From NCBI RefSeq assembly GCF_000403355.2, contig NZ_KE159646.1:328424-392423 (forward strand): a stretch of DNA of 64,000 nucleotides, read 5' to 3'. The notes under the pieces are model-generated. The model did not search any database and was not told the DNA's origin. It worked only from the letters and a program-made list of their open reading frames with translations. A program made the position numbers and the translations under genes. The DNA comes from Adlercreutzia caecimuris B7 (GTDB taxonomy: Bacteria; Actinomycetota; Coriobacteriia; Coriobacteriales; Eggerthellaceae). Shown here piece by piece: positions 13,290-54,580 of this stretch. Within the stretch, counting starts at the first letter, position 1. Each line of letters starts with the position of its first letter.

Positions 13290-15477
<2,188 letters not shown>

Positions 15478-15500
15478 TTTGCAGCTCCTCGAGGTCGGGC

Positions 15501-15602
15501 TACGGGGTAATGCTCAGTCGCTCAGACAGTCCTCGCTCGGCGAAACAGTCCACTGGACTGTTTCGTTCGCTGCGGAACTCGCTTGGTGAGCACCACCCCG
15601 TA
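15501..15602 (-). repeat. Foldback element, copy 1
   Basis: Outer arms 15501-15516 and 15587-15602 pair over 14 of 16 positions. Between them, read on the minus strand, come the shared left strand AGCGAGTTCCGCAGCGA, an inner hairpin with the loop region CCAGTGG, and the shared right strand AGCGAGGACTGTCTGAGCG. It fills the ABC-F/trmL gap. The flanks (GTCGGGCT and CCCTCT) also match other copies. Confidence 0.9.
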
Positions 15603-15636
15603 TCCCTCTGCACGTTGACTAGGTTGAGGTAGAGAG

Positions 15637-31991: not shown

Positions 31992-32662
31992 TGATCGTCG
32001 CCATCGATGGGCCCTCCGGGGCCGGCAAGTCCACCGTGGCCAAGGCCGTGGCCAAAGAGCTCGGCTTCTCCTGTCTGGACACGGGCGCGATGTACCGCGC
32101 CATCGCCTGGCAGGCGCTGCATAACGGCGTCTCCCTCGACGATGAGGCGGCTCTGGGCGAGATCGCCCGCACCTACGATATCGCTTTCGGCCACGTGGAG
32201 GGCGACCCGGTGCCCAAGCGCGTGTTCATTGGGGATGCGGAGGTGACCGATGCCATCCGCACGGCCGAGATCGATCGCGCCGTGAGCCCCACCTCGGCTG
32301 CCCCCTCGGTGCGCGCCGCCCTGCTCGAACAGCAGCGCAGAATCGGCAATGCCGGCAACTACGTGGTGGAGGGCCGCGACATCGGCACCGTGGTGTTCCC
32401 CGATGCGGCCGTGAAGGTGTTCCTCACCGCATCGGACGAGGAGCGGGCCCATCGCCGCGTGCGCCAGAACGTGGACCGCGGCATCGGCTCCATCGACTAC
32501 GAGGAGGTGCTGGCCGACCTGCGCCGCCGTGATGCGGCCGACTCCTCCCGGGCTACCGCGCCCCTGCGCGCTGCTGAAGACGCTGTGCAGATCGACTCCA
32601 CGAGCCACTACATCGAGGAGGTCATCGACCAGATCTGCGCCCTGGCACGGGAGAAGATGTAG
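31991..32662 (+). CDS. cmk: Cytidylate kinase
   Basis: 223 residues. P-loop GPSGAGKSTVAKAVA, then LDTGAMYRAIAWQA and VEGRDIGTVVFPDA, all specific to CMP kinase. It phosphorylates CMP and dCMP with ATP. The frame is open far upstream, but the family start is the ATG that shares an A with the aroA stop. A foldback element begins 32 bases after the stop. Confidence 0.95.
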   Translation: MIVAIDGPSGAGKSTVAKAVAKELGFSCLDTGAMYRAIAWQALHNGVSLDDEAALGEIARTYDIAFGHVEGDPVPKRVFIGDAEVTDAIRTAEIDRAVSPTSAAPSVRAALLEQQRRIGNAGNYVVEGRDIGTVVFPDAAVKVFLTASDEERAHRRVRQNVDRGIGSIDYEEVLADLRRRDAADSSRATAPLRAAEDAVQIDSTSHYIEEVIDQICALAREKM

Positions 32663-32694
32663 GAGCGGCTCGACGAAGGAAGTGCGTAGAGGGA

Positions 32695-32798
32695 TGCGGG
32701 GCTGTGCTCACCAAGCGAGTTCCGCAGCGACGAGAACAGGACTTAACGTCCTGTTCTCCAAAGCGAGGACTGTCTGAGCGACTGAGCATTGCCCCGCA
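32695..32798 (+). repeat. Foldback element, copy 2
   Basis: Outer arms 32695-32710 and 32783-32798 pair at 14 of 16 bases plus a wobble. Compared with copy 1 the outer stem differs at two positions on both sides (TGCGGGGC instead of TACGGGGT), so pairing is kept. The inner hairpin is different (ACAGGAC stem, TTAAC loop). The left and right core strands match the family. Confidence 0.9.
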
Positions 32799-32848
32799 GC
32801 CCGACTTTGGGGGAGTCGCTCTTTTGGAAACCGACGGAATGGAATCCT

Positions 32849-33751
32849 ATGAGTCTCTTTCTGAAATACTCCGACATGTGGGACATGGACCTGGGCGGCC
32901 GCGACCGTTCCCGCGAGATTCCCCATTGGTTCGGCAACCTGGCCTGGATCGTCATCGGTGGGCTGTGCAAGCTGCTGTTCCGCTACCGCGTGGACAACCG
33001 CCAAAAGCTGCGGGCGTTCCAAGGGGCCGAAGGCGCGCTTGTCATCTGCAACCACACCTCGTTCTTCGATGTGGTGTTCATGTACCTGGCCGCCCGCCCG
33101 AAGCAGTGGGTGCGCCTCATGGGCCGCGATACGCTGTTCGGCAACGCCGGCGGTCTGCTCGGCCAGATTCTCTCGCGGGTGGGCGCCTTCCCCGTGAAGC
33201 GCGACACGGCTGACATGACTTCCATCAAGCGGGCCGTGCGCATGCTGAAGAACGACGAACTCGTGGGCATTCTGCCCGAGGGCACCCGTCGCGGCAAGAC
33301 CGACCGGGTGGCCTCCATCCACGCCGGCGTCTCGGTCATCGCCCGCATGGCGAAGGTGCCCATCCTGCCCATGACCGTGCGCGGCGTGGAGAAGATCAAG
33401 AACAAGGGCGAGCGCGTGCGCTTCCCGAAGGTGACCGTGGACTACGGCGACCCCATCCTGGTGTCGGACTTCGACTTCCTGCCCAAGGAGGAGCGCGTGG
33501 AGGCCTGCACCTGGTACGCCATGCGCGAGAGCTTCGCCCTGTTCTACCGCGTGCCTGCCGAAGACGTGGACATGGTGGCCCTGTTCCCCGAGACCCGCGA
33601 CTACGCGCCGGTGTTCGCCGAGCACCCCATCCCGCGCCACACAAGCGACGAGCTGGCCTGCGCCGCCCGCACCGTGCGGGCCGAGAAAGAGGCCAAGGCC
33701 GTGGGGGCCGCCGCTAAGGCCGAGGGTGCCGAGAAAGGCGAGGGGGAGTAG
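32849..33751 (+). CDS. plsC: 1-acyl-sn-glycerol-3-phosphate acyltransferase
   Basis: 300 residues. The acyltransferase motifs are NHTSFFD (HX4D, about residue 72), LPEGTRRGKTD (about 145) and VPILPMTVRG. It makes phosphatidic acid from lysophosphatidic acid at the membrane. Members of this family are often 200-250 residues; here the C-terminus adds a charged Ala/Lys/Glu tail. I chose the ATG at 32849; the in-frame ATG at 32789 lies inside the foldback element. The next gene follows after two bases. Confidence 0.87.
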   Translation: MSLFLKYSDMWDMDLGGRDRSREIPHWFGNLAWIVIGGLCKLLFRYRVDNRQKLRAFQGAEGALVICNHTSFFDVVFMYLAARPKQWVRLMGRDTLFGNAGGLLGQILSRVGAFPVKRDTADMTSIKRAVRMLKNDELVGILPEGTRRGKTDRVASIHAGVSVIARMAKVPILPMTVRGVEKIKNKGERVRFPKVTVDYGDPILVSDFDFLPKEERVEACTWYAMRESFALFYRVPAEDVDMVALFPETRDYAPVFAEHPIPRHTSDELACAARTVRAEKEAKAVGAAAKAEGAEKGEGE

Positions 33752-33753
33752 CC

Positions 33754-34626
33754 ATGGAAGTGATTCGCGCGAAACGGGCTGGGGCCTGCTACGGCGTGCA
33801 GCGGGCCCTGGACATGGCCGCCGAGGTGATCGAGGCGGGCGGTCGCGCCTACACCTTGGGGCCGCTCATCCACAATCCTCAGGTGGTGGACGAGCTGGCG
33901 GCCCGGGGCGCTGCGGCCGTGGCGTCGGTGGAGGACATTCCCGCCGCGGCCAGAACCGACGCAGCGGCCGCTGACGGGGCACCGGCCGTGGTCATTCGCT
34001 CCCACGGGGTGACGCCCGAGGTGCTTGCGGCGGTGGAAGAGCGCGGCTTTTCCGTGGTGGACGCCACCTGCCCCCATGTGTCCCGCGCCCAGGCCGCCGC
34101 GGCCGAGCTGGCCCGGGAGGGCTGCCGCGTGGTGGTGCTCGGCGAGGCGGGGCACCCCGAGGTGGAGGGGCTCACCGCCTGGGCCCGTCAGGCCGGCGGC
34201 AAGGTGGATGTGGTGGCCGGCCCCGGCGAGATTCCCGCGGGGCTCTACGATCCGGTGGGCGTGGTGGCCCAGACCACCCAGCGCAAGGAGAACCTGGAAG
34301 CGGTGGTGGCCGCCCTGCGCGAGCAGGGGCTCGATCCCATCGTGAAGAACACCATCTGCTCGGCCACGCGCCAGCGCCAGGAGGCCGCCGCCGATCTGGC
34401 TGCGGCCGTGGACGCCATGGTGGTCATCGGCGGCCGCAACTCGTCGAATACCACGCGCCTGGCCGAGGTCTGCGCCCTTACCTGTCCGCGCACCTTCCAT
34501 ATCGAGTCGGTCGACGAGCTGAACGCGACGGCCTTCGCCGGCTGCCGCCGCATCGGCGTCACGGCCGGCGCCTCCACGCCCGAGAACCAGATCGCCTCCG
34601 TGGAGGCCTTCTTGAAGACTCTGTAG
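33754..34626 (+). CDS. ispH: 4-hydroxy-3-methylbut-2-enyl diphosphate reductase
   Basis: 290 residues. The three cluster-ligand Cys are in GACYGVQRAL, DATCPHVSRAQ and NTICSATRQRQ; LIHNPQVV and GHPEVEG carry the substrate His and the catalytic Glu. It is the last step of the MEP isoprenoid pathway, an iron-sulfur enzyme producing IPP and DMAPP. It follows plsC after two bases and is seven bases before the DUF512 gene, so all are one operon. Confidence 0.94.
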   Translation: MEVIRAKRAGACYGVQRALDMAAEVIEAGGRAYTLGPLIHNPQVVDELAARGAAAVASVEDIPAAARTDAAAADGAPAVVIRSHGVTPEVLAAVEERGFSVVDATCPHVSRAQAAAAELAREGCRVVVLGEAGHPEVEGLTAWARQAGGKVDVVAGPGEIPAGLYDPVGVVAQTTQRKENLEAVVAALREQGLDPIVKNTICSATRQRQEAAADLAAAVDAMVVIGGRNSSNTTRLAEVCALTCPRTFHIESVDELNATAFAGCRRIGVTAGASTPENQIASVEAFLKTL

Positions 34627-34633
34627 GCAGCCA

Positions 34634-36319
34634 ATGGCCACCTATCCCGGCAAGGACATCGAGCGGGCGGCGCAGGCTGCTTGCGGCTCTGCCTCCGACG
34701 CAGGTGCCGGCGCCTCCGGTCCCAGCGCGCCCTGCGCCGGTTGCGGCGCTGCCGCCTTGACCCCTGCCCAGGCGGCGGCCGCAGCCTGGGACGGTCCCGT
34801 GGCGCCCATCGCCGCCGTGGAGCCGGAGAGCCCCGCCGACGACGCGGGCTTCACGGCCGGCTGCTACCTCACGACCGTGGACGGCCAGCCTGTGCGCGAC
34901 ATCATCGATTGGCGGTGGCTCGCGGCCGAGGATGCCATAGCGGTTGGCTACATCGACCAAGATGGCGAAGCGGGCGAAGTGGAACTGGAGCGCGAGCCGG
35001 GGGAGCGCTGGGGCTTCGAGTTCGACGGCGTGCTCTTCGATAAGGTGAAGCTCTGCCGCAACGCCTGCGTGTTCTGCTTCATGCGCCAGCTGCCCGAGGG
35101 CGTGCGCTCCTCGCTCGTGCTGCGCGACGACGACTTCCGCCTGAGCTTTTTGTCGGGCACCTTCGTCACGCTCACGAACCTGAGGCCCGAAGACGAGGCC
35201 CGCATCATCGAGCAGCACATCAGCCCCTTGCGGGTGAGCCTGCACGCGAGCAATCCCGACCTGCGCCGCTCCATGATCGGCCGGCACGCCCAGCATGGCC
35301 TGAATGCCCTCGATCGCCTGCTCGCCGCTGGCATCCAGACCCACGCGCAGATCGTGCTCATGCCGGGGGTGAACGATGGCGATGCCCTGCGCGAGACTTT
35401 GGAATGGGCCTGGGCGCGGCCGAACATCCAGAACGTGGGCATCGTGCCTTTGGGCTTCACCAAGCACCAGACCGCGCTGCACGAGAGCTTCACGACCCCC
35501 GAGGCGGCCCGCGGCGTTATCGAGGTGATCGCCCCCTTTCAGGAGCGCGCCCGCGCCGAGCGGGGAGGGCCGTGGGTATTCGCCGCCGACGAGTTCTACG
35601 TGAACGCCTACGGCGCGGACACTCCCGCCCATATCCCGCCGGCGAGCGATTACGGCGACTACGACATGTTCGAGGACGGCATCGGCATCGTGCGCTCCTA
35701 TGTGGACGAGTTCGACGAGGCCGTAGCATCGGGCTTGGCCGCCCGCGCCGCCGACGCCTTGGCGAGTCGCAACCTCCAGGCCCGCTACATTATCGGCGAG
35801 GCCATGCAGCCCTTCCTCGACGCGATGATCGAGCGCAGCCCCCTCGCCGACCGTCTCGTTCCCCTCACCGTGGGAAACGACTATTTCGGCGGCAACGTGA
35901 ACGTAACCGGCCTCCTCTGCGGCTGCGACATAGCCGCCGCAATCAAGACCGAGATAGGGATGGAAAAAGCCCCCAGCGAGGAAGAGGGCAGCTTACCCAA
36001 GGTTGAGCAGGGAGGCGACGGCGGGTGTTCCAACCGAGCGAGTTCCGCAGCGAACGGAAATGCCCAGTGGGCATTTCCGCAGAGCGAGGACTGTCTGAGC
36101 GAATTGGAATACCCGCCGTCGCCTTCCGGACAAGCCCCCGCAGGCGAGCTGTTCCTCATTCCGAGCGTCATCTTCAACGACGACGGCATCACGCTCGATG
36201 ACATGACCGTGCAGGATATCGAAAACGCGGCCGGAGCGCCCGTGTCCGTGGTATCCTGTAACCCGCTCGACTACCTGCCCGAGATCATCGCGCTTATCGA
36301 GCCCGAGAACGTCGCATAG
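34634..36319 (+). CDS. DUF512 radical-SAM-like protein, interrupted in frame by a foldback element
   Basis: 561 residues; relatives are near 430-450. After an Ala/Gly-rich start with a CAGCG motif comes a PDZ-like region (PESPADDAGFTAGCYLTTVDG, about 57-100). Then comes the iron-sulfur motif CRNACVFCFMRQLP (about 140) of the radical SAM type and the DUF512 domain. Residues of about 460-500 are encoded by foldback copy 3 (36014-36123). After it the conserved domain resumes with LFLIPSVIF and LDDMTVQDIE. The family sits next to der in many bacteria, as here, and its function is unknown. If the insert is tolerated, it falls in a surface loop. Confidence 0.82.
   Translation: MATYPGKDIERAAQAACGSASDAGAGASGPSAPCAGCGAAALTPAQAAAAAWDGPVAPIAAVEPESPADDAGFTAGCYLTTVDGQPVRDIIDWRWLAAEDAIAVGYIDQDGEAGEVELEREPGERWGFEFDGVLFDKVKLCRNACVFCFMRQLPEGVRSSLVLRDDDFRLSFLSGTFVTLTNLRPEDEARIIEQHISPLRVSLHASNPDLRRSMIGRHAQHGLNALDRLLAAGIQTHAQIVLMPGVNDGDALRETLEWAWARPNIQNVGIVPLGFTKHQTALHESFTTPEAARGVIEVIAPFQERARAERGGPWVFAADEFYVNAYGADTPAHIPPASDYGDYDMFEDGIGIVRSYVDEFDEAVASGLAARAADALASRNLQARYIIGEAMQPFLDAMIERSPLADRLVPLTVGNDYFGGNVNVTGLLCGCDIAAAIKTEIGMEKAPSEEEGSLPKVEQGGDGGCSNRASSAANGNAQWAFPQSEDCLSELEYPPSPSGQAPAGELFLIPSVIFNDDGITLDDMTVQDIENAAGAPVSVVSCNPLDYLPEIIALIEPENVA
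36014..36123 (+). repeat. Foldback element, copy 3, inside the DUF512 gene
   Basis: Outer arms 36014-36033 and 36104-36123 pair at 19 of 20 bases; the single exception is a wobble. The core strands and inner palindrome (GGAAATGCC/GGCATTTCC) match the family. It is translated without a stop. It is the only copy in coding sequence. Confidence 0.9.
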
Positions 36320-36377
36320 GCTCTCGCGAGCCCCGTACCGCGGCCGCCCCGCCGCGCGAATAGAAGAGGAACCTGCC

Positions 36378-37691
36378 ATGGCATTGCCAATCGTCGCCAT
36401 CGTCGGCCGCCCGAACGTGGGCAAGTCGACGCTGGTCAACCGCATCGCCCAAACGAGCGAGGCCATCGTCCACGAGATGCGCGGCGTCACGCGCGACCGC
36501 AGCTACCACAAGGCCGACTGGAACGGCGTGGAGTTCATGCTCATCGACACCGGCGGCATCGAGATGGGCGGCGACGACGCCTTCCAAGGCTCCATCCGCT
36601 CCCAGGCCTTCGAGGGCGCCCGCGAGGCCGATGTCATCATCTTCCTCGTGGACGGCAAGACCGGTATCAACACCGACGACGAGGAGGTGGCCCGCATCCT
36701 GCAGAAGGCCAAAAAGTCCGTGTTCCTCGCCGTGAACAAGATGGACAACCCCGCCCGCATGGACGAGGTGTGGGAGTTCTACGCGCTCGGCCTGGGCGAC
36801 CCGTGGCCCGTGAGCGCCCAGCACGGCAACGGCACCGGCGACTTGCTCGACGAGGTGGTGGCCGAGCTGCGCAAATGCGACCTCACCCCCGAGGAAGAGG
36901 TGGAGGCCATCAACGTGGCCATCATCGGGCGCCCGAACGCGGGGAAGAGCTCGCTGACCAACAAGCTCACCAACAACGATCGCTCTATCGTGAGCGACGT
37001 GGCCGGCACCACCCGCGATGCCATCGACACGCTGGTGGAGCACGACGGCCAGATGTACCGCATCGTGGACACGGCGGGCCTGCGCCGCAAGAGCCAGATC
37101 GACGAGGACGTGGAGTACTACGGCTTCGTGCGGGCCATGCGCGCCATCGACCGGGCCGACGTGGCCCTGCTCGTCATCGACGGCACCCTGGGGCTTACCA
37201 ACGAGGACCAACGCGTGGCGGGCTATGCCGCCGAGCGCGGCTGCGCCATGGTGATCGTGCTGAACAAGTGGGACATCGTAGAGGGCCCCGAGGCCAAGGA
37301 GAAGATTCGCGAGCGCATCGAGGACCGCATGACGTTCGTCGGCTACGCGCCCGTGGTGGCCATCTCGGCGCTCACGGGCAAGCGCGTCGACCGCATCTGG
37401 AGCGCCATCGACACCGTGTACGCGAACTTCAGCCGCATCATTCCGACAGCGCGCCTGAACACATGGCTTGCCGGCATCCGCGAGACGGGCCACACCGTGT
37501 CGAAGGGCAAGGCCGTGCTGCGCATGAAGTACCTCACCCAGACCGGCACCTGCCCGCCCTACTTCACGTTCTTCGTGAACCGCCCCGATGTGGTGGACGA
37601 CAACTACGAGCGGTACCTGGAGAACCGCATGCGCGAGGCCTTCGACCTCACCGGCACCCCCATCCGCTTCAAGTTCAAGAAGAAGGACTAG
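36378..37691 (+). CDS. der: Ribosome assembly GTPase Der (EngA)
   Basis: 437 residues with the double GTPase plan unique to Der. G1 is GRPNVGKSTLVN (about residue 10) with DTGG and NKMD; the second is GRPNAGKSSLTN (about 182) with DTAG and NKWD. A C-terminal KH-like domain follows (about 350-437). It is needed for 50S subunit maturation. It lies between DUF512 and plsY, and plsY begins four bases after its stop. Confidence 0.96.
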   Translation: MALPIVAIVGRPNVGKSTLVNRIAQTSEAIVHEMRGVTRDRSYHKADWNGVEFMLIDTGGIEMGGDDAFQGSIRSQAFEGAREADVIIFLVDGKTGINTDDEEVARILQKAKKSVFLAVNKMDNPARMDEVWEFYALGLGDPWPVSAQHGNGTGDLLDEVVAELRKCDLTPEEEVEAINVAIIGRPNAGKSSLTNKLTNNDRSIVSDVAGTTRDAIDTLVEHDGQMYRIVDTAGLRRKSQIDEDVEYYGFVRAMRAIDRADVALLVIDGTLGLTNEDQRVAGYAAERGCAMVIVLNKWDIVEGPEAKEKIRERIEDRMTFVGYAPVVAISALTGKRVDRIWSAIDTVYANFSRIIPTARLNTWLAGIRETGHTVSKGKAVLRMKYLTQTGTCPPYFTFFVNRPDVVDDNYERYLENRMREAFDLTGTPIRFKFKKKD

Positions 37692-37694
37692 GCC

Positions 37695-38405
37695 GTGGAC
37701 ACCGTTGTCACCTACTTGATTCTGTCGTTCATCGTCTCGTTCCTGCTGGGGTCTATCCCCTGGGGCGTCATCGTCTCGAAGCTGGCCTTCAAGAAGGACC
37801 TGCGCGACGAGGGAAGCGGCAACATCGGCACCACCAACGCCATGCGCACGCTGGGGAAAGCCGGGGGCGCTGCGGTGTTCGCGCTCGACTTCGGGAAGGG
37901 GCTCTTGTCGGGATGGCTGGCGGCTTACGTGTTCGCGCCGGCGGTGGCCGGGGTGCCCATGGATATTGCCGCCGCCGATGGGGAGCTGCTCCTGGGCATC
38001 TCCTCCAATCCGACTTTGAACCCCGTAGCTCTCTGCATGGCCCTCGCCTTTGCCGGCTGCGCGTTGGGCCACATCTTCAGCCCCTGGTTGAAGTTCCACG
38101 GCGGCAAGGGCATTGCCGTGGCCGCCGCGTGCCTGCTGTTCGTCTACGGGCCCGTGGGCTTCCTCATCGAGGTGGCCGTGTTCGCTGCGGGCGTGCTGGC
38201 CACGCGCTACGTGTCTGTCGGCTCCATCGCCGCCGCGGTGGTATGCCCGCTTCTGGGCCTCTACTTCTACTGGGGCAATTGGGTGGCGTGGGTCATTATC
38301 TTGGCCACGGCGTTGGTGGTCATCTGGGCTCACCGCGCTAACATCGGCCGCCTGCGCGCCGGCACCGAGAACCGCATCGGCAGCAAGAAGAAGGTCGCAC
38401 AATAA
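37695..38405 (+). CDS. plsY: Acyl-phosphate:glycerol-3-phosphate acyltransferase
   Basis: 236 residues, somewhat longer than the usual 200, with five or six membrane segments. The conserved loops are GSGNIGTTNAMRTLG and LGHIFSPWLKFHGGKGIA. It transfers the acyl group from acyl-phosphate (made by PlsX, also in this window) to glycerol-3-phosphate. The start is GTG. gpsA, which makes the glycerol-3-phosphate, follows after a foldback element. Confidence 0.94.
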   Translation: MDTVVTYLILSFIVSFLLGSIPWGVIVSKLAFKKDLRDEGSGNIGTTNAMRTLGKAGGAAVFALDFGKGLLSGWLAAYVFAPAVAGVPMDIAAADGELLLGISSNPTLNPVALCMALAFAGCALGHIFSPWLKFHGGKGIAVAAACLLFVYGPVGFLIEVAVFAAGVLATRYVSVGSIAAAVVCPLLGLYFYWGNWVAWVIILATALVVIWAHRANIGRLRAGTENRIGSKKKVAQ

Positions 38406-38430
38406 AATTTTCAACCATGGTCGGCGTAGA

Positions 38431-38542
38431 GGGAACACAGGGTGTTCTGACCGAGCGAGTTCCGCAGCGACTGAAACAGGACTAAACGTCCTGTTTCACA
38501 AAGCGAGGACTGTTTGAGCGAATCAGAATACCGCGTGGTCCC
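38431..38542 (+). repeat. Foldback element, copy 4
   Basis: Outer arms 38431-38450 and 38523-38542 pair at about 16 of 20 bases, the least perfect of the family. The core strands are conserved, and the inner stem TGAAACAGGAC/GTCCTGTTTCA is perfect. It begins 25 bases after plsY. Confidence 0.88.
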
Positions 38543-38575
38543 GACGGGCGGGGATTTACGAGGAAGGAACTGATC

Positions 38576-39574
38576 ATGAAAGTAGCCGTTATCGGAGCCG
38601 GCAGTTGGGGGACGGCACTGGCGTTGGTGCTGGCCGAGGCCGGGCACGACGTGATGCTCTGGGCCCGCACGGCCGAGGTGGCCCGGGCGATCAACGCCGA
38701 GCATCGCAACCCGCGCTATCTGTCCGACTACCGCCTGCCCGACGCCATCCGCGCCACCTCAGACTACGCCGAGGCGTGCGAGGGCGCCGAGGCCGTGGTC
38801 GTCGTGACCCCGTCGGCGGCCCTGCGCTCTGTGGCCCGCGATCTGGCTGCGCTGATCGCACCCGATACGCCTATCGTCATCTGCTCCAAGGGCGTGGAAG
38901 AGGCAACGGGTCTTCTGCCCATCGACACCTTCGCCGCCGAGCTGGGAGCGCCCGAGCGCCTGGCGGTGCTGTCGGGCCCCACCCATGCCGAGGAGGTCAT
39001 CTGCCGCAAGCCCTCGGCCGCCGTGGTGGCCAGCGTTTCGGAGGCGACGGCGCTGTTCTTCCGCGATCTGTTCGCCACCCGTTTCTTCCGCACCTACACC
39101 TCCGACGATCCCGTGGGCGTGGAGCTGTGCGCCGCCTTCAAGAACGTCATCGCCATCGCCGTGGGCATCAGCTACGGCATGGGATTTGGCGACAACACGG
39201 CGGCCCTGCTCATCACCCGCGGTCTGGCCGAGATGAGCCGCATGGTAGTGGCTGCCGGCGGCGAGGCCCTCACCTGCATGGGTTTGGGGGGTGCCGGCGA
39301 CATGGTGGTCACCTGCATGTCCCAGCACTCGCGCAACCGCCGCTTCGGCGAGCAGTACGTGGCCCGGGGCCTTACCCTGGACGACTTCACGGCCCAGACC
39401 CACATGGTGGTGGAAGGGGCCATCGCCTGCAAGACCCTGCGCACCTTGGAGGAGCGCTACGGGGTGGAGCTGCCCCTGACCGACACGGTACGCAGCGTGG
39501 TGTGGGAGGCCGTGAGCCCCCGCGAGGCCGCCGCCGCCCTCATCGACCGGCCCCTCAAGTCCGAGTTCTACTAG
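38576..39574 (+). CDS. gpsA: Glycerol-3-phosphate dehydrogenase (NAD(P)+)
   Basis: 332 residues. Rossmann motif VIGAGSWGTALALVLA, then SGPTHAEEV, and the catalytic-Lys region AAFKNVIAIAVGISYGMGFGDNT, all typical. It makes sn-glycerol-3-phosphate for phospholipids. GAGGAAGGAA precedes the ATG. It is the last gene of the operon before a 580-base gap. Confidence 0.95.
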   Translation: MKVAVIGAGSWGTALALVLAEAGHDVMLWARTAEVARAINAEHRNPRYLSDYRLPDAIRATSDYAEACEGAEAVVVVTPSAALRSVARDLAALIAPDTPIVICSKGVEEATGLLPIDTFAAELGAPERLAVLSGPTHAEEVICRKPSAAVVASVSEATALFFRDLFATRFFRTYTSDDPVGVELCAAFKNVIAIAVGISYGMGFGDNTAALLITRGLAEMSRMVVAAGGEALTCMGLGGAGDMVVTCMSQHSRNRRFGEQYVARGLTLDDFTAQTHMVVEGAIACKTLRTLEERYGVELPLTDTVRSVVWEAVSPREAAAALIDRPLKSEFY

Positions 39575-39592
39575 GCTGATTGCGGGTCGTCC

Positions 39593-39711
39593 GGCGCGAG
39601 ATGCGGGGTGGGGGCGCCGTGCTCAAACAGTCCTCGCTCGGCGGAAATGCCCACTGGGCATTTCCGTTCGCTGCGGAACTGCGCGCGGACCCCCGCCCCG
39701 CATCTCGCGCC
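39593..39711 (-). repeat. Foldback element, copy 5
   Basis: The longest copy. Outer arms 39593-39619 and 39686-39711 start with a perfect 16-base pairing and stay mostly paired for about 25. The inner palindrome GGAAATGCC/GGCATTTCC is the same as in copy 3. Core strands are read on the minus strand; the AGCGAG at the left end is altered to GCGCGC. Confidence 0.88.
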
Positions 39712-39792
39712 TGCTTCTCCAATACTGAATTGTTCACCTGCATTATCAGGTTTCGCCTGGTAAACGATGCGCATACGTCGGCGCAACCGACG

Positions 39793-52056: not shown

Positions 52057-52079
52057 CATGCTCGAAATCCCTCGGGGGC

Positions 52080-52191
52080 GCAGAACGGGCGGCATACCCA
52101 GTCGCTCGGACAGTCCTCGCTCGGCGGGACAGTCCACTGGACTGTCCCGTTCGCTGCGGAACTCGCTTGGTGGGCACACCGCCCGTTCCGC
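52080..52191 (-). repeat. Foldback element, copy 6
   Basis: Outer arms 52080-52100 and 52171-52191 pair at 17 of 21, and the remaining pairs are all G-U-type wobbles if the minus strand is transcribed except one A-U. The core and the inner stem (GGGACAGTCC/GGACTGTCCC) fit the family. It fills the fakA-recG gap. Confidence 0.9.
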
Positions 52192-52226
52192 TTTCGACAT
52201 TACCATAGCTGGGATAGGGGACATTC

Positions 52227-54401: not shown

Positions 54402-54425
54402 ACTCGAGGGGCTCATCGCCCGTCG

Positions 54426-54534
54426 GAGACGCGGGATACTCCAATTCGCTCGGACAGTCCTCGCTCGGCGGAACAGTCCACTGGACTGTTCCGAACGCTT
54501 GCGGAACTCGCTCGGCTGGAGCATCCCGCGCCTC
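54426..54534 (-). repeat. Foldback element, copy 7
   Basis: Outer arms 54426-54443 and 54517-54534 pair at 16 of 18. The inner stem GGAACAGTCC/GGACTGTTCC is perfect. One core base is added (GCTTGCGG in place of GCTGCGG). It lies 24 bases after recG and 46 before rsmD. Confidence 0.9.
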
Positions 54535-54580
54535 CTCTACGCACTGCCACGATTGAGATGAGAGTGAAAGGAGCGCGGCT

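Follow-up and report, generated by a model that had tools for sequence, protein, structure and literature searches.

Foldback elements with complementary but sequence-variable arms form a dispersed, probably mobile palindromic family in Eggerthellaceae

The window, the whole stretch of 64,000 nt that was analysed, contains seven copies of a foldback element of about 152 bp, three of them within the interval 32695–38542 (Table 1). The elements are probably copies of a non-autonomous mobile palindromic element resembling MITEs and REPINs. The genome that holds the window is denoted W below, and the genomes compared with it G001 to G008. Positions are those of the window unless a genome position is given.

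Table 1. Copies of the element in the window, with the conserved middle of the copy that lies in a coding sequence
Feature	Extent	Model match	Strand	Outer arms	Remarks
Family-1 element	~15477–15628	15494–15606	-	15587–15606 / 15497–15516	
Family-1 element, cmk–plsC intergenic	32669–32822	32691–32805	+	32691–32710 / 32783–32802	
Family-1 element, in frame within radical-SAM/DUF512 gene (34634–36319)	35992–36143	36014–36126	+	36014–36033 / 36104–36123	
Conserved middle of the coding copy	36034–36103		+		Internal loop, middle stem AGTTCCGC/GCGAGGACT with bulged A, inner hairpin
Family-1 element, plsY–gpsA intergenic	38409–38562	38431–38545	+	38431–38450 / 38523–38542	
Family-2 element (CGCGCAG...GAGCA core), 3′ of gpsA	39580–39727	39593–39708	-		
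Family-1 element	52061–52212	52078–52190	-	52171–52190 / 52081–52100	G002 site empty
Family-1 element	54405–54557	54422–54535	-	54516–54535 / 54425–54444	G002 site empty

From the outside to the inside, the fold consists of a variable outer stem of 20 pairs, a conserved middle and a variable inner hairpin. The middle is nearly invariant and asymmetric, and comprises an internal loop and the short stem AGTTCCGC/GCGAGGACT with a single bulged A. Conservation among family-1 copies extends from about 42 bases before the loop to about 39 after it and then falls to background (n = 109 copies), which sets the length of the element at about 152 bp. The core reads GAGCGAGTTCCGCAGCGA ... GCGAGGACTGTCTGAGCGA. 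Its 5′ half has 41 matches in the genome with at most two mismatches, as counted by a best-match search that may miss copies and was superseded by covariance-model searches; at least three of the 41 lie in ordinary sequence without a model match. A second sub-family carries CGCGCAG...GAGCA where family 1 has GAGCGAG...GAGCGA. In many family-2 copies of G004, the middle stem is altered on both sides (GGTTGCGC/GCGAGCC). G004 also has a sub-family (e.g. L261, L265 and L275) whose inner hairpin is longer (ATGGTATCGAAGGC...GCCTTCGATACC) and which measures about 137 nt, against 113 in the model.

A covariance model built on 28 copies from the window's own genome matched 59 places in that genome (2.96 Mb), 49 in G004, 24 in G002 and 44 in G003. 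A crude gene caller would place 67 of 97 elements outside genes and 30 within them. With model R1 at E ≤ 1e-5, 71 of 138 family genomes and 26 of 48 genera had matches; as at most 27 candidates were scored per genome, copy numbers from this survey are lower bounds. A sample of the class gave model matches at E ≤ 1e-6 in 117 of 346 genomes. Those outside the family were weaker, mostly with E-values of 1e-7 to 1e-9 and 1.4e-11 at best.

The arms differ between copies, as illustrated by TGCGGGGC (32691), TACGGGGT (15494), GGCGACGGCGGGT (36014) and GAGACGCGGGAT (54422, read on the + strand), and each pairs with its own partner. In the six family-1 copies of the window, 16–19 of the first 20 arm pairs are Watson-Crick; the family-2 copy has 10 of 20 in the ungapped register. 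The four copies that were folded had z-scores of -4.45, -9.09, -5.79 and -3.41, and none of 200 shuffled sequences folded equally well. These results confirm the preliminary description, which had reported arms unlike each other but self-paired, and all three forms of the inner stem that it named are present, with 98.7% of inner-stem cells paired. Its two compensating changes between copies fit the pair 15494 and 32691, where a third, uncompensated difference (pair 8, G.T versus T.T) had been overlooked.

Across 29 copies from the own genome aligned with MAFFT, 97.4% of cells pair, compared with 83.5% when the letters of the 3′ arm were redealt and 48.5% at most when partners were slid. Both sides changed in 23 of 40 pairs. 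The covariation score was 0.439, against 0.165 for shuffled and up to 0.112 for slid partners; as this alignment also supplied the structure, the score and the 97.4% lean towards it. A control free of fitting was anchored on the loop, leaving out six of 120 elements whose anchors were unrecognisable. Watson-Crick pairs amounted to 955 of 1134 with own partners versus 609 with swapped ones in 81 family-1 copies, and to 352 of 462 versus 243 in 33 family-2 copies. In unique arm pairs drawn from eight genomes, the mean number of Watson-Crick pairs out of 20 was 16.7 for own and 10.4 for swapped partners in family 1 (no partner surpassing the own one in 70 of 99), and 14.9 and 9.3 in family 2 (25 of 41). 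The same frame with different arms was found in 20 copies from eleven genomes in eight other genera, where 276 of 320 pairs are Watson-Crick, 25 are GT and 4 are AC.

The non-canonical pairs are not distributed evenly between the two strands. Of 81 family-1 copies, 68 have G.T at pair 7 and 39 have an A.G mismatch at pair 16. Leaving pair 7 aside, family 1 shows G.T and A.C in a ratio of 83:25 (fraction 0.77; 0.54 with swapped partners). The ratio is 82:20 in family 2 (0.80; 0.67 swapped), and in neither family did any of 500 swaps reach the observed value. The excess is present whether copies run antisense to both of their neighbouring genes (11:2 and 11:3) or sense (10:4 and 7:0), and it recurs in the 20 copies from other genera (25:4). 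It is thus irrespective of the direction of the host genes, which indicates that the fold of one strand of the element matters. Structure of the host mRNA in the sense direction only was rejected on the same grounds, and because orientation relative to genes is even, with 21 sense and 16 antisense copies in family 1, and 5 and 8 in family 2. With respect to replication, family 1 leans towards the leading orientation (21:10, p = 0.07) and family 2 towards the lagging one (3:13, p = 0.02). The two sub-families are inconsistent in this comparison, for which origin and terminus were guessed from the GC skew of 20 samples and five family-1 copies near either end were left out. An excess of G.T on one strand is expected if the fold is adopted by single-stranded DNA or by a transcript of the element, and not from a cruciform or from strand-symmetric copying.

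A transcript encoded by the element would produce this asymmetry too. The corresponding rival reading is a structured RNA, either a small transcript of its own or a cis element, whose fold would be selected in place while copies diverge by compensatory evolution. The preference for G.T over A.C on one strand fits this explanation, as do the retention of wobbles, bulge and loops and the finding that orthologues of the same copy change less than their flanks (see below). It is nevertheless unlikely. Rfam gave nothing over the elements, either in 32600–38700 at E up to 10 or in the whole window at gathering scores, and the sense of flanking genes is not preferred. Furthermore, the cmk–plsC site carries the element in either orientation or not at all, depending on the species, and turnover is high between species that are 5% apart.

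Sister species differ at the three sites within 32695–38542. Between cmk and plsC, the copies of W and G003 have the same orientation with different arms (identity 0.42), G001, G002, G005, G007 and G008 carry the element in the opposite orientation, and the site is empty in G004. In G003, a stretch resembling the 3′ end of an older inverted copy adjoins the present one. Eight positions separate the arms of the G008 and G002 copies; six fall in the one arm and two in its partner, and all are uncompensated. The copy in the DUF512 gene is present in W, G001, G002, G003, G004 and G008 and absent from G005, which is about 95% identical to G001. Its reading frame is open in all six filled genomes, yielding RASSA...SEDCLSE peptides despite the differing arms. 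The plsY–gpsA site is filled in W, G001, G004, G005 and G008, and empty in G002, G003 and G007.

The neighbouring plsC–ispH junction (window position ~33738) contains an extra insert of about 180–220 bp in G002 and G008 (L078 8322–8505 and L080 3902–4120) that W and G003 do not have. This insert holds another long inverted repeat (GGAATCGACGGTTT...AAACCGTCGATTC), which appears to be a second, unrelated-looking foldback element. Yet another insert occupies the junction in G005.

Five empty sites, of 48–53 bases each, were searched for arm sequence. The longest exact matches were 4–6 bases, where shuffled sequences gave means of 4.8–5.4. Separate loci can also have arms in common, for example window position 38431 and genome position 803388. 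Since the empty sites hold no arm and separate loci can share arms, the arms travel with the element. Both observations speak against a copying mechanism that writes palindromes specific to each locus, as had been proposed. They likewise led to the rejection of the very improbable alternative that the outer arms derive from palindromes, for example terminators, that were already at the site when the element inserted: arms that differ by locus and the many copies at gene ends would suit it, but it is contradicted at the sites tested, and conservation reaches beyond the arms. No target-site duplication is visible at the empty sites read. Their flanks differ as well, so that at any one site a copy may have been lost.

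Sister genomes were compared at the species level, none of them from within one species. Regional identity is 95.4% between G002 and G003 and about 95% between G001 and G005; W is 90.4% identical to G002 and 90.9% to G003. Parts of the genomes were covered, with 56 of 59 copies from W, 33 of 44 from G003 and all 24 from G002. Copies with an arm identity of at least 0.8 were taken as the same copy. The rates of change of such copies in arms, middle and flank were 0.036, 0.027 and 0.062 between W and G003 (16 pairs), 0.039, 0.011 and 0.076 between W and G002 (7 pairs), and 0.020, 0.009 and 0.049 between G003 and G002 (5 pairs). The slower change of the elements could mean that they have a function for the host.

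At other placements, a different or inverted element is found in the second species: five of ten compared placements between G003 and G002 (one of the five, with an arm identity of 0.75, may be a diverged same copy), four of 11 between W and G002, and six of 23 between W and G003, where G003 additionally has an inverted copy in one further row. In four of these 15 placements the element is inverted. Differences can extend into the surrounding sequence, as far as the stop codon or the ribosome site. Gradual paired change and sudden replacement had been put forward as opposite outcomes of such a comparison, and both modes occur. Change of one arm without the other, which would count against selection for structure, also occurs: 13 of the 18 arm columns changed between same copies of W and G003 are one-sided, in line with the G008 and G002 copies between cmk and plsC. 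Three of the 13 are wobble changes and, of the other ten, seven make or break a Watson-Crick pair. The five double changes comprise three clean Watson-Crick replacements (TA>CG twice, GC>AT once) and two others. That one-sided, pair-breaking changes are common also stands against the mobile reading. Selection for structure, the first explanation offered in the preliminary description, is supported by the covariation, the excess of G.T over A.C on one strand, the kept wobble at pair 7, the frequent A.G at pair 16 and the nearly invariant loops.

Pairing could be kept without selection if one arm were rewritten from the other by template switching during replication (quasipalindrome correction), a mechanism described for hairpins (PMC8794818). 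It may contribute to the pairing of the arms, and is improbable as the explanation of the elements. It was assessed on the closest arm pairs, that is, tree edges with at most four differences, leaving out 12 of 171 elements with unrecognisable anchors. On these edges, 24 columns exchanged one Watson-Crick pair for another through changes in both arms, while one-sided wobble changes numbered 16, which favours rewriting; yet 20 of the 24 doubles are transitions, as expected for passage through G.T, a further 16 one-sided changes create or destroy a pair, and four are A.C. At L018, the G002 copy departs from that of W at two neighbouring bases of a single arm, and its arms are then fully complementary except for the usual G.T, but the 3′ flank has been replaced as well. 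Copying from arm to arm should moreover be strand-symmetric, contrary to the excess of G.T over A.C, and it leaves the nearly invariant loops and the kept wobble of pair 7 unexplained.

The mobile palindromic element could operate as follows. One strand would fold into a long hairpin in which the outer stem is nearly sequence-free, the asymmetric middle nearly invariant and the inner hairpin variable. The shape, together with the letters of the loops, would be recognised in trans by a factor that probably acts on single-stranded DNA. Such recognition would leave the arms free to drift while pairing is kept; compensatory drift of this kind, with the fold under selection, can account for the diversity of the arms. 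Whole elements would spread, presumably by transposition and mostly outside genes, and newcomers would often displace old copies or land in them; replacement of whole elements can account for the sudden differences at a locus. Weighing against this account are the outcome of the search for Y1_Tnp (see below), the lack of a visible target-site duplication at the empty sites read, the inconsistent orientation relative to replication, the slower change of same copies than of their flanks, and the fact that a transcript of the element could produce an equal strand asymmetry.

The nature of the putative factor was approached through known mobilisers. PF01797 (Y1_Tnp) has no match in seven of the nine genomes of the genus Adlercreutzia, the own genome included (three of the seven are 79–90% complete). 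It is present in 71 of the 138 family genomes and is not associated with the element: 39 genomes have both, 32 the element only, 32 Y1 only and 35 neither (p = 0.50). A RAYT was consequently rejected as the mobiliser now at work in most of these genomes. IS110 was rejected as a constant partner, since PF02371 is found in four of the nine genus genomes. Carriage by plasmids or phages is unsupported, as one element (window 38390–38585) had no match in either the plasmid or the phage collection, and the 18-base motif occurs in three viral contigs, none of which is scored by the model.

It is conceivable, though doubtful in this full form, that the family is defined by its fold and not by the sequence of its arms, that one DNA strand is recognised by an enzyme outside the Y1/HUH class, and that elements home to older copies, swapping whole elements at intergenic and coding places across the family. 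A dispersed family that lacks a RAYT in most of its genus and combines a nearly invariant internal loop with rapid element-for-element turnover between close species would suggest that common gut bacteria have a mobilising enzyme not yet described. The many copies also make a natural data set for telling compensatory evolution from template copying.

Hairpins recognised by shape with varying letters are already known from attC sites and the spacers of REPINs. REPINs combine conserved stretches with a sequence-free hairpin part in which compensatory changes are common, and fold as single strands (PMC3116915). The element described here shares this principle, and both are short dispersed palindromes with a conserved and a compensating part. 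The present element differs by its length of about 152 bp, its variable outer arms and its nearly invariant internal loop, and by the missing Y1_Tnp match noted above. As the principle is REPIN-like and no RAYT was found in the own genome, it is best regarded as a variety of an already known class of small palindromic mobile DNA. REP sequences carry GTAG or GTGG 0–2 nt 5′ of the hairpin (PMC6006769). GTAG lies one base from the foot of the stem in 33 of 103 family-1 copies and is not among the eight commonest tetranucleotides in 41 family-2 copies; it is not general.

MITEs are likewise small, multi-copy and polymorphic for insertion, with defined ends, whereas here the arms are complementary without sequence conservation, and no target duplication is visible at the empty sites read. 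Rickettsia palindromic elements are palindromes of about 150 bp that may sit in frame inside genes (PMC10969869). They resemble the element in size, palindromic nature and in-frame insertion, which was studied at one coding site (DUF512, six species), but the element lies mostly outside genes. Integron attC sites are defined by core boxes and the integron integrase. They are sequence-variable hairpins whose strand is chosen through extrahelical bases and an unpaired central spacer (PMC2727003). The likeness lies in the variable hairpin, and the difference in the dispersed copies found here. Among the papers listed on palindromic or inverted repeats and MITEs in Eggerthella and Adlercreutzia, titles and abstract openings describe no such element, and none of six taxon names sought occurs in PMC3733652.

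Close pairs of elements occur at L017, L025, L028, L029, L039 and L040 in the own genome, at L268 in G004 and at L098 in an uncultured Enterorhabdus. The members are mostly in opposite orientation, and several pairs combine different sub-families. At genome position ~1067163 of W (L021) and at the same site in G003 (L344), a 5′ half element, broken just after GAGCGAGTTTTGCAG, precedes a full one, and the order of the two arm types is swapped between the two genomes. This arrangement suggests insertion into a neighbouring copy or recombination between neighbouring copies.
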